Shown here: positions 16,662-19,208 of the stretch, piece after piece
How positions within the stretch are numbered: the first letter of the stretch is position 1
Layout: every line of letters begins with the position of its first letter
Source: a virus
Direction: 5' to 3' (one strand)
Length of the DNA: 25,745 nucleotides
IMG/VR virus record: IMGVR_UViG_3300042868_004924
Span: 1-25,745 of that record
The notes under the pieces: generated by a model
What the model saw: the letters and a program-made list of their open reading frames with translations, nothing else
Told to the model about the DNA's origin: nothing
The model's database searches: none
Made by a program: the position numbers and the translations under genes

Positions 16662-16670
16662 TCCTGCACC

Positions 16671-16698
16671 TGTTTATGTTTAGACATGAGGCTGCCAA
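16671..16698 (-). promoter_or_regulatory. Possible leftward promoter for the replication operon
   Basis: On the minus strand TTGGCA (16698-16693) and TAAACA (16676-16671) are 16 bases apart and sit directly before the first gene of the leftward operon, whose start is at 16661. The leader would be extremely short, around ten bases or fewer. The -10 match is poor, so confidence is low. Confidence 0.3.
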
Positions 16699-16760
16699 AG
16701 CCAGGGGTTGGGTGATCCCCCTGTCTTGCACTGCCCTTCCCTGAGAGAGTCAGAGAAGAA

Positions 16761-16795
16761 CCTGTCATCCTCCGTAATGCCTGTCATCCTCTGTA
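16761..16795. repeat. 16-base direct repeat, CCTGTCATCCTCYGTA
   Basis: Copies at 16761-16776 and 16780-16795 differ at one base and are offset by 19 bases, close to two helical turns. They lie about 100 bases upstream of the leftward replication operon. They may be a tandem operator or a trace of local duplication. Confidence 0.45.
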
Positions 16796-17135
16796 TCGGA
16801 TGCTGACCGATTGAGAAGGTGGGTAAGTCCTTCCGGCTGGTCCCTGCCGCCCCGCACATCACCCTGTACGCATCATTTGCTCCCTGTGCTGGAGGACACA
16901 AGGAACCCGGCCCCCTGGATCGCCGGCGTTGACAGGCCCGCTCACATGCTCTGAGCGGTAAGGTGTTTCCCGGGTGCGGTCCATGCAGACCCATTTGCTA
17001 ACGCGCCCTGACGACCATCTGCACTGAAAACCCCCGGCACCTGGGGTCAGAGGCTCAGTCTGATTGCCCAAGGGTGAGAGCCCCGGGGGTCATCAGTGAA
17101 GACGGCAGGAACATCCTAAGACAAGTTCAAAGGCT

Positions 17136-17163
17136 TTGCAAGGGCCAACCTCTGTGCTATCCT
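17136..17163 (+). promoter_or_regulatory. Rightward promoter for the candidate small RNA
   Basis: TTGCAA (17136-17141) and TATCCT (17158-17163) with a 16-base spacer, and an extended -10 TG (17155-17156). The same TGC-TAT arrangement is seen in the promoter at 17610-17638. Initiation is expected near 17170. Confidence 0.5.
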
Positions 17164-17657
17164 TGTCTCCGCTCTGTTGCTGGAGCGATCTCCCTCCTGT
17201 GGCGCTTCGGCGCCTTGGCCCCGGTTGACCTCCGTCCCGGGGCCTTTTTTTGTCCCGGCATCTCCCGGACGGTGATGACACATCGAGGGCACTCCTTGTC
17301 TTGATGCCAGTAGATGTGCTTCTCCTTGACCTGTCTGTCGTTTACATAGAGCCTTCCCTGGAGCAGATCCAAGATGAGGCTCTCGTCCAAGTCTGGTCGT
17401 CGGGAGGCGTACCAGATATGGATCTCCGCAGAGACATCCTTGTCCGTGGGGTTCTCCGCCGGGGCGCATTGCTGTTGAAACATCTCTGAGTAGGTCAGGG
17501 CCTTCTGGCTCTTGATCAGCCGAGACATCCCGCCGAACCGGACGACCCTCCTGCTGTTGGCCTTGCTTGCAGGCTCCCCAAAAATTTCTCTGGTTTCGCA
17601 GAAAAGTGCTTGCACTTGTTCTGCGCTAGTGCTATGCTCTGTCTCATCGTTCAACAC
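17157..17657 (-). CDS. rusA: RusA-family Holliday junction resolvase
   Basis: 166 residues from a GTG with an AGGAG SD; a second GTG 19 codons in (VQALFCETREIFG) is possible. The conserved part is GEPASKANSRRVVRFGG, RLIKSQKAL, ASRRPDLDESLILDLLQGRLYVNDRQV, carrying the acidic residues (DLDE, then ND) used by RusA to bind magnesium and cut four-way junctions. The RusA domain ends near ITVREMPG; the remaining 32 residues are basic, low-complexity and are encoded opposite a terminator and a structured RNA, so they are probably an add-on tail. The resolvase fits the exonuclease and annealing genes that diverge from it. Confidence 0.85.
   Translation of the reverse strand: MLNDETEHSTSAEQVQALFCETREIFGEPASKANSRRVVRFGGMSRLIKSQKALTYSEMFQQQCAPAENPTDKDVSAEIHIWYASRRPDLDESLILDLLQGRLYVNDRQVKEKHIYWHQDKECPRCVITVREMPGQKKAPGRRSTGAKAPKRHRREIAPATERRQG
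17170..17251 (+). ncRNA. Candidate structured small RNA antisense to the rusA 3' end
   Basis: About 82 bases bounded by a promoter and a strong terminator, with three adjacent perfect stems: CGCTC/GAGCG (17170-17187), GGCGC-TTCG-GCGCC (17201-17214, a stable UUCG tetraloop) and the terminator stem. No protein-coding gene upstream on this strand needs the terminator, because everything from 14181 to 17657 reads leftward. The RNA would be antisense to the last 32 codons of rusA, which look like non-conserved tail. No known RNA family is recognised; a single-stranded gap at 17188-17200 (ATCTCCCTCCTGT) is CU-rich and could pair with SD sequences. Confidence 0.5.
17217..17251 (+). terminator. Strong rightward rho-independent terminator inside rusA
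   Basis: Stem GGCCCCGG (17217-17224) pairs with CCGGGGCC (17237-17244) around a 12-base loop and is followed by seven T (17245-17251). There is no matching T-run for leftward transcription, so it works rightward only. Confidence 0.8.
17610..17638 (+). promoter_or_regulatory. Rightward promoter for the recombination operon
   Basis: TTGCAC (17610-17615) and TATGCT (17633-17638) are separated by exactly 17 bases, with an extended -10 TG. Initiation near 17645 gives a 24-base leader to the TTG start of the nuclease gene. The promoter lies inside the rusA coding region, so the two divergent transcripts overlap or collide at their 5' ends. Confidence 0.65.
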
Positions 17658-17669
17658 AGGAGATCTCCT
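17658..17669. promoter_or_regulatory. Palindromic ribosome-binding site shared by two divergent genes
   Basis: AGGAGATCTCCT is a perfect 12-base palindrome. Read rightward, AGGAG stands six bases before the TTG start of the nuclease gene; read leftward, the same sequence puts AGGAG seven bases before the GTG start of rusA. The starts are only 11 bases apart. One symmetric element thus decides both starts, and both are weak start codons. Confidence 0.75.
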
Positions 17670-18544
17670 TGATCATCACAAACAACCATGGCGCTCCGGC
17701 TACGTTGGTCGCCTTGGCCCGGAAAAACTACTACTCAAAGGGGGACTCGGACTACTCCGTCACGGAGCTTCTGTCTCCACCCAGGGTTCGACGGCTTCAA
17801 GAGCGGCACGATGCCGTCTTGACAAAGGATGTCTCTGACATGCTCTGGGCCCTGCTTGGATCGGCACTCCACGTTGTAGCTGAACGGGCCTCTGCCGAGG
17901 ATCATGTCACAGAAGAGAGGATCGTCGCGGACATCGACGGTGTCAAGGTCTCTGGTGGCATTGATCTTCAGGAGATGACTCCCTCGGGCGTGATCATCAC
18001 CGACTACAAGTTCACTTCTGCCTACTCCGTGATGAACGAGAAGAAGGAGTGGGAAGAGCAGTTGAACCTGTACAAGTGGCTGGTAGAGTCCGTCAAGCGG
18101 ATTCCGGTCAAGGGCCTTCGGATCTGCGCCCTGATCCGGGATTTCTCTCGCCATGATAGGCGCGAGAATTACCCGGACGCTCCGATCCATATGGTGGACA
18201 TCCCCATGTGGGACTCTGTGACCGCAGAGGCGTTTGTACGCTCCCGTTTACAGCTTCACACCGAAGCAAAGTTTGCAGATGCGATGGAGGAGCCCCTTCC
18301 ACCATGCTCTGCGGAAGAGCGTTGGTTTTCCGAGACAACCTACGCCGTGAAGAAGGAAGGCAGGAAGACTGCCGTCCGCGTGTTCAAGACCATCGAAGAG
18401 GCCCAAGAGTTGGCCGCAAAGGAGAAGGGATATGTCGAAACCCGAGCAGGAGAGCCCCGCCGCTGCACCGGAAACTTCTGTGGAGTCGCAGAGTTCTGCG
18501 AGCAGTACCAGTCAGAAGTCAATCTACGACTTGCTGAAACTTGA
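17669..18544 (+). CDS. Cas4/RecB-like PD-(D/E)XK exonuclease
   Basis: 291 residues from TTG with a good SD. The nuclease core is VSGGIDLQ (Asp near 98), IITDYKFTS (Asp near 112, Lys near 114) and the helix EEQLNLYKWLVES, the usual motif order of RecB-type nucleases. Cysteines 213 (PPCSAEERW), 266, 271 and 277 (CTGNFCGVAEFC) can hold a Fe-S cluster as in Cas4 and AddB. Such nucleases resect ends for phage recombination. The last 113 bases overlap the annealing-protein gene in another frame, across the cysteine motif. N-terminal 45 residues (VTELLSPPRVRRLQERH) fit the DNA-entry region. It could act in replication instead of recombination. Confidence 0.87.
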   Translation: MIITNNHGAPATLVALARKNYYSKGDSDYSVTELLSPPRVRRLQERHDAVLTKDVSDMLWALLGSALHVVAERASAEDHVTEERIVADIDGVKVSGGIDLQEMTPSGVIITDYKFTSAYSVMNEKKEWEEQLNLYKWLVESVKRIPVKGLRICALIRDFSRHDRRENYPDAPIHMVDIPMWDSVTAEAFVRSRLQLHTEAKFADAMEEPLPPCSAEERWFSETTYAVKKEGRKTAVRVFKTIEEAQELAAKEKGYVETRAGEPRRCTGNFCGVAEFCEQYQSEVNLRLAET

Positions 18545-19208
18545 TGTCAGCAAGTTCATCGAGAAGAAGCAAGGGCTCAGCTACGTCTCCTGGGCTCATG
18601 CCTGGGCGATTGCCCTGAACGCAGACCCATACGCGAACTTCCGTGTTCATACGTTCGGGCCCAACGGTGACGAGTGCTACATGCGTGTAAATGGCACGGC
18701 GATGGTGTGGGTCGATGTCACCCTCTTCTCCAAGTCCATCACTTGCTGGCTTCCGGTCATGGACCACCGCAACAAGCCCATCGCTGACCCGGATTCTTTC
18801 CAGGTCAATACGGCACTCATGCGTTGCTTGACGAAGGCACTTGGATTCCACGGCCTGGGGCTGAACGTCTACGCGGGAGAAGATCTGCCTCTGTCCGTCC
18901 CTGGAGAGGAAGAAGACAAGCCCGCCAAAGTGCCTGCAAAGGCTCAGAAGGACTCTCCCAAGGAGCCTGTGAAGGAGCCTGTGAAGGAGGAGGCGAAGAG
19001 CCCTGATGAAGATCCCCAACTGTCTGCAGAACTGTTTACAGATGGGTTTGTGGAATACATGATCGTTGTGCAAAGCACAGACGGCCTGAACAGCTACTGG
19101 AAGTCCAACCAGACCAAGCTGGACAAGCTCAAGGCGAAGTACCCCGATCTGTATGAGCGATGCCTGTCCGTTGCCAAGGACAGGAAGCAGCAACTGAGCA
19201 AGGAGTGA
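18432..19208 (+). CDS. DUF1071/Sak3-type single-strand annealing protein
   Basis: 258 residues. Core from about residue 30: SIYDLLKLDVSKFIEKKQGLSY, VSWAHAWAIALNADPYA, ITCWLPVMDHRNKPI and TALMRCLTKALGFHGLGLNVYAGEDLP, the DUF1071 signature. These proteins anneal complementary single strands and pair with an exonuclease, here the gene upstream. The C-terminal third is a Lys/Pro/Glu-rich linker (KEPVKEPVKEEAKSPDED) and a small helical end. The start lies 113 bases inside the nuclease gene; SIYDLL is conserved and no later start keeps it, and AAGGAG precedes the ATG, so the overlap is real. The extra N-terminal 29 residues are Ser/Ala/Glu-rich. Confidence 0.88.
   Translation: MSKPEQESPAAAPETSVESQSSASSTSQKSIYDLLKLDVSKFIEKKQGLSYVSWAHAWAIALNADPYANFRVHTFGPNGDECYMRVNGTAMVWVDVTLFSKSITCWLPVMDHRNKPIADPDSFQVNTALMRCLTKALGFHGLGLNVYAGEDLPLSVPGEEEDKPAKVPAKAQKDSPKEPVKEPVKEEAKSPDEDPQLSAELFTDGFVEYMIVVQSTDGLNSYWKSNQTKLDKLKAKYPDLYERCLSVAKDRKQQLSKE

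Follow-up and report, generated by a model that had tools for sequence, protein, structure and literature searches.

The palindrome AGGAGATCTCCT (17658..17669, both strands) packs two interlocked Shine-Dalgarno sequences (SDs) into 12 nt, and we consider it most probable that compaction maintains them as a bidirectional ribosome-binding region, possibly with a small RNA (sRNA) regulator beside it. The window, i.e., the whole stretch analyzed here, spans 25,745 nt (positions 1–25,745 of the viral record IMGVR_UViG_3300042868_004924), and since it also includes terminase, portal, and primase-helicase genes, it represents a phage fragment. To the left of the junction, rusA (17157..17657, minus strand) encodes a Holliday-junction resolvase of 166 aa (PF05866, 6.1e-07, 30.5 bits vs a gathering score of 22.8; phrog_140). 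To the right, a PD-(D/E)XK exonuclease of 291 aa (17669..18544, plus strand; PDDEXK_1 PF12705, 2.2e-06, 28.3 bits vs a gathering score of 22; phrog_2139, 1.1e-51) is the first gene of a rightward recombination run, with a Sak-type single-strand annealing protein downstream (18432..19208, plus strand; PF06378, 1.5e-34). Both profile matches agree with the gene names, rusA and nuclease, given in an earlier note on this DNA. Among named phages, a single DNA match extended over 8% of the query and protein relatives of the nuclease fell below 60% identity (289 records), and a search of genome contigs for relatives that might inform on the host found none. A stretch of ~470 nt (16662–17130) separating rusA from the leftward replication genes carries no profile-supported gene, and its right part is conserved in relatives.

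The two start codons are separated by 11 nt, so that both SDs are written into the same few bases. On the minus strand, rusA begins as CAAGGAGATCTCCT-GTG, with its SD CAAGGAG at 17665..17671 and 7 nt between AGGAG and the GTG (17655..17657), and this SD uses bases common to the TTG codon of the nuclease. On the plus strand, the nuclease begins as CACAGGAGATCTCC-TTG, with its SD AGGAG (17658..17662) located 6 nt before the TTG (17669..17671), the codon from which homologues align and whose first T is the last base of the palindrome. The palindrome and the correctly spaced SDs that the earlier note had assigned to rusA (GTG) and the nuclease (TTG) can thus be read directly. Calculated pairing with the 16S tail reached −8.5 kcal/mol for the rusA SD, in the window as in its clade, while the nuclease SD reached −7.4 kcal/mol in the window vs −11.0 kcal/mol in clade relatives, i.e., the A at the palindrome center of the window costs ~3.6 kcal/mol of calculated pairing. 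A consensus SD and its complement interlock, so that strong SDs are possible even at an 11-nt start gap, and two consensus SDs at this spacing (AGGAGNNCTCCT) are automatically mirror images of each other save for two middle bases. Because the starts lie 11 nt apart, near-mirror symmetry follows, and the exact mirror symmetry of the window looks like a by-product of fitting two SDs into so few letters. TTG, a rare start codon, would also fit this packing, since its two T complement the first AA of AAGGAG in the rusA SD. By itself, a perfect 12-nt palindrome is unremarkable in this window (8 observed vs ~6.3 expected by arithmetic), and no exact copy of AGGAGATCTCCT exists elsewhere in the window or in the whole record.

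We then considered the close clade, defined as the window and five further distinct junctions (six distinct sequences). Both start codons are invariant across all six sequences, and the five other junctions are all CACAGGAGGTCTCCTTG, reading AGGAGGTCTCCT where the window has AGGAGATCTCCT. The sole variable junction column is the palindrome center, with A in the window and G in the other five. When columns are treated as independent, variable columns are far rarer in the junction (1/17) than just upstream (12/16; Fisher p 6e-5), and no variation is seen in CAC and TCTCC, the eight junction columns that the rightward ribosome-binding site (RBS) does not need (p 0.0013). Overall, the paired SDs are conserved beyond chance, and from the sequence and its conservation we infer that both are used. 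Conservation of the palindrome, which the earlier note had proposed as a check, splits accordingly: the paired SDs and both starts are kept in the relatives, which nevertheless read AGGAGGTCTCCT, so that none of the five is a perfect palindrome. The perfect palindrome of the window is a single G/A difference from its relatives, and one that weakens the nuclease SD. Searching for the junction 17-mer elsewhere returned 14 stretches, eight of them in the clade (L071, L072, and L074–L079) and six outside (L080–L085); no gene pair sharing an SD was demonstrated among these six.

Relatives recovered from viral contigs included 69 nuclease loci and 53 RusA loci. The nuclease is divergent from rusA in 52 of the 53, and the remaining contig ends inside rusA. 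Across 44 distinct junctions tabulated (a table without L182, where the script picked up no RusA motif), 42 displayed an in-frame rusA start at a distance of 12–26 nt from that of the nuclease. In 37 of the 44, a rusA start near the nuclease was accompanied by an SD-like match (−3 kcal/mol or better). As judged by eye, the SDs usually abut in this family, with CAT..CCTT directly followed by GGAG..ATG. The interlocked form AGGAG..CTCC is found in the window clade alone, and SDs both reaching −7 kcal/mol or better are likewise restricted to this clade, with the exception of L196. Tight packing is not obligatory, since L014 and L059 start rusA further inside (−44 and −53, respectively). The widespread feature is therefore the tight head-to-head placement of the starts, the interlocked near-palindrome is a local refinement, and the perfect palindrome belongs to the window alone. 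Under the compaction reading, the head-to-head placement of rusA and the PD-(D/E)XK exonuclease would be fixed, with 11 nt separating the start codons. In the clade, each SD adjoins the start codon of the other gene, which allows both SDs to be strong.

A generic pattern search detected a similar arrangement in an unrelated phage gene pair: a methyltransferase (phrog_799) and its partner, a conserved small basic protein, have CATCAGGAGTCCTCCTCGTG in common in eight loci (L087, L093, L095, L101, L115, L117, L120, and L122). In L117, the partner gene differs and the CATCAGGAGTCCTCCTCGTG SD is retained. The middle bases of CATCAGGAGTCCTCCTCGTG are not self-complementary, so that the element consists of two SDs and not of a palindrome. 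The generic survey of viral sequence with CAYNAGGAGNNCTCCTNRTG returned 37 stretches, against 18 for the control pattern CAYNTCCTCNNGAGGANRTG, and both open reading frames (ORFs) had a length of 60 aa or more in 10/37 vs 0/18 (Fisher p 0.02). However, one family accounts for seven of these 10, and when it is counted once (4 with vs 27 without, control 0/18) the enrichment is not significant (p 0.28); we use the survey to show that the arrangement recurs. Candidates L086, L092, and L102 are not claimed as shared-SD gene pairs, one or both of their ORFs being without a profile match.

Next, we evaluated promoter-like sequences on both strands of the window and its relatives against shuffles, using sigma70 weight matrices built from approximate frequencies. 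The rightward promoter that the earlier note had placed inside rusA was located at 17610..17638 on the plus strand, within rusA codons, as TTGCAC-17-TATGCT (boxes at 17610–17615 and 17633–17638) with a TG-extended −10, and the mRNA is predicted to start near 17645. Promoter-like score at this site is enriched across the family (mean z 2.48, n = 42 distinct regions, with 81% of them at p ≤ 0.05). A standard promoter scan misses both this promoter and the sRNA promoter described below, which fall below its threshold. No comparable leftward sigma70-type signal emerged when the 5′ region of the nuclease gene was scored on the minus strand (mean z 0.06, n = 45, and −0.3, n = 44; plus-strand control, 0.11), and no extra synonymous-site constraint was found at the nuclease 5′ end. 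One leftward candidate, TTGACA-17-GATCCT, ~250 nt into the nuclease gene, was rejected as it is coding sequence kept in part of the clade only. The rightward operon would thus begin at a sigma70-type promoter inside rusA, and rusA would be read by leftward transcription starting inside or beyond the nuclease gene at a promoter not recognizable here; this may be a phage-specific promoter of another type. Separately, GTGC/GCAC half-site repeats surround the rightward promoter in the window (17603–17638), are loosely kept in relatives, and could be repressor sites. In several of the loci L010–L016, the non-coding stretch left of rusA contains a repeated GTTTAAAC, which may represent an origin element or a promoter of the phage.

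These promoter results bear on the central proposal of the earlier note, namely that the two mRNAs would be complementary over their 5′ ends and silence each other. In its full form, this would be a mutual antisense switch in which the divergent 5′ ends pair over the SDs, the first-made RNA silences the other, and the palindrome kisses or dimerises, which we regard as unlikely. The geometry does fit, as the predicted rightward start (~17645) precedes the rusA SD (17665–17671), so that any leftward mRNA carrying this SD must pair with the 5′ end of the nuclease mRNA, and the head-to-head arrangement is conserved. If both strands were transcribed at once, the leaders would pair over both SDs and might repress each other or feed RNase III. 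However, the absence of a leftward sigma70-type promoter signal and of synonymous constraint in the nuclease gene leaves the proposed silencing lacking its second RNA, and the palindromy is not conserved. The suggestion that the palindrome could hide the SD is not supported either: the hairpin of the isolated 12-mer is weak (−2.2 kcal/mol), equal in relatives, and outside the predicted minimum-energy fold of either leader. By calculation, RNA dimerisation would be stronger in the window than in relatives (−20.6 vs −16.4). Nothing in these sequences shows that leader pairing is a selected trait.

Known systems provide partial parallels to such a switch. The divergent operons argE/argCBH and bioA/bioB of E. 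coli have overlapping leaders and, as with an excludon, resemble this junction in a possible mutual exclusion through antisense overlap; unlike in those systems, the certain overlap here is confined to the ribosome-binding region and does not extend to a long antisense leader. When the junction was evaluated for an excludon-like overlap, the rightward promoter was found and the leftward one was not. In S. aureus, divergent genes (tagG/tagH and pdf1/SA0943) have overlapping 5′ untranslated regions (UTRs) that are processed by RNase III (PMC3386247), which lends the switch some plausibility: in both cases two coding genes diverge, with leaders that are complementary there and would be here. Yet the S. 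aureus pairs have long 5′ UTRs and both RNAs were observed, whereas here the starts lie 11 nt apart, the SDs overlap, and a leftward RNA would have to be postulated (PMC3386247).

Two further explanations do not rest on a shared SD. The palindrome could instead be a protein operator, bound by a repressor or an activator in the interval from the −10 box to the start, with its likeness to SDs secondary. Its location immediately after the predicted rightward start and the perfect 12-nt symmetry in the window would suit such a role, which we nonetheless judge highly improbable: the symmetry is broken in all five other distinct clade junctions, there is no second exact copy in the window, and both halves stand at SD spacing from the starts of conserved genes. 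Also quite improbable is that rusA starts at codon 15, an inner NTG lying over the −35 box, which would make the CTCCT half coincidental with nothing shared. Codons 1–14 of rusA lack a codon-position signature, so that translation from the GTG at 17657 rests on SD and GTG conservation rather than on a coding signature; sequence conservation also rises at about codon 15, and the distant L014 and L059 begin there. Against this, the inner codon has no SD (present in five clade rows, with values of +0.1 to +0.4 kcal/mol) and is ACG in L007, while CAC and TCTCC are invariant in the clade and a start with an SD-like match lies near the nuclease start in 37 of the 44 junctions. This inner codon is the alternative rusA start that the earlier note had offered as the case against overlap. 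A literature search on shared, palindromic, or bidirectional SDs or RBSs, in a coverage that excludes most subscription journals, returned nothing on point.

Returning to the bidirectional ribosome-binding region, its putative regulator lies at the other end of rusA. The clade alignment upstream of the junction revealed an invariant stretch in the rusA 3′ end (17136–17251, plus strand) with, in order, a promoter-like TTGCAA-16-TATCCT (17136..17163, plus strand), two hairpins with GATCTCCCTCCTGTG between them, and a strong terminator with T7. The sRNA-like element itself (17164..17251, plus strand), antisense to the rusA 3′ end, comprises a hairpin (17170–17187), a pyrimidine tract, a hairpin (17201–17214), and a terminator (17217–17251), and folds 4.1 s.d. 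better than shuffles (z −4.13). The putative promoter score is weakly enriched (mean z 0.71 over 43), and −10-like hexamers were seen by eye upstream in relatives. Over five distinct rows, one of which is off by a column in the alignment, 96.7% of pair cells in the stems are kept and two of 18 pairs changed on both sides, i.e., covariation is thin. Codons 141–168 of rusA display no codon-position pattern, with no protein constraint there. Comparable elements of hairpin, pyrimidine tract, and terminator occur at the rusA end in a total of 38 loci, the window among them; 35 lie on the plus strand and three on the minus strand (L009, L010, and L013), a change of orientation that would fit a trans-acting RNA more easily than a cis terminator. 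No comparable element was detected in L169, L182, or L059, and L157 and L199 offered too little sequence for detection. The pyrimidine tract is fully unpaired in 18 of the 38 predicted folds, and aligning the element across the family gave a consensus for the terminator only. Altogether, the element is sRNA-like, conserved, and encoded opposite the 3′ end of rusA, and is probably a small RNA gene that would be expressed and act as an RNA.

Rfam searches of this element returned sub-threshold matches only. The best, RF02278 (Betaproteobacteria toxic sRNA), scored 31.3 bits in L171 and 16.6 in the window; the likeness consists of a short RNA with a similar GC-rich terminator end, and every locus searched falls below the gathering score of 50. 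RF02344 (alpha-r14) scored 15.2 bits in the window vs a cut-off of 58.8. In three related phages, RF02932 (Betaproteobacteria-1 RNA) matches at 90–95 bits (cut-off 49.4) lie a few hundred bases from the sRNA-like element (L163:2900-3017, L174:2915-3032, and L177:2556-2673), which suggests betaproteobacterial hosts. Two other related phages carry tRNA genes beside the rusA end (L180:2890-2961 and L186:2629-2700).

The pyrimidine tract includes an anti-SD segment, CCTCCTGTG (17193..17201, plus strand), invariant in five distinct clade sRNA rows and complementary to CACAGGAG(G) of the nuclease RBS. Clade sRNAs thereby match the nuclease RBS CACAGGAGG through CCUCCUGUG, over 9 bp in relatives and 8 bp in the window, and in four clade contigs CACAGGAGG is found only at the RBS and opposite the sRNA, apart from one further site in one contig. 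Since permutation of individual sequences (0/20000) is inflated by relatedness, we relied on group-level comparisons: across 13 groups, the tract matches its own nuclease RBS better than exchanged pairs do (p 0.006 by length and 0.013 by energy), although group assignment was done by eye and the tract of the window clade and of L159/L160 was placed by hand, both of which may favor a match. Without the window clade, the corresponding values are p 0.05 and 0.09, and several groups, e.g., L009, L187, L161, and L175, display poor complementarity or none. These comparisons are consistent with a modest own-pair match across the family.

By covering the nuclease RBS, the tract of the sRNA-like gene could provide a more specific control. 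A tentative extension, rather unlikely in our view, is that the family sRNA mimics the 16S tail, its tract covering the nuclease half and timing translation of the exonuclease–Sak operon; interlocked SDs would then let one short target couple both divergent genes. As CCUCCUGUG is identical to the rusA start region, the sRNA would also compete with rusA mRNA for the nuclease leader. In the rhizobial sRNAs alpha-r14/NfeR1, hairpins expose an unpaired anti-SD motif CCUCCUCCC that pairs with the translation initiation region (PMC10746234). The element described here would similarly oppose an unpaired anti-SD segment to a translation initiation region; unlike those RNAs, it has one pyrimidine tract, is phage-borne, and is antisense to rusA (PMC10746234).

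Taken together, the junction indicates that translation signals are highly compactable, with strong SDs for divergent genes fitting into 11 nt between starts, and a similar compaction solution appears in an unrelated phage pair. Caution is also warranted before palindromes near start codons are read as operators. The sRNA-like gene, conserved in a wide phage family and below all Rfam cut-offs tried, would be a simple and testable case of translational timing in phages.
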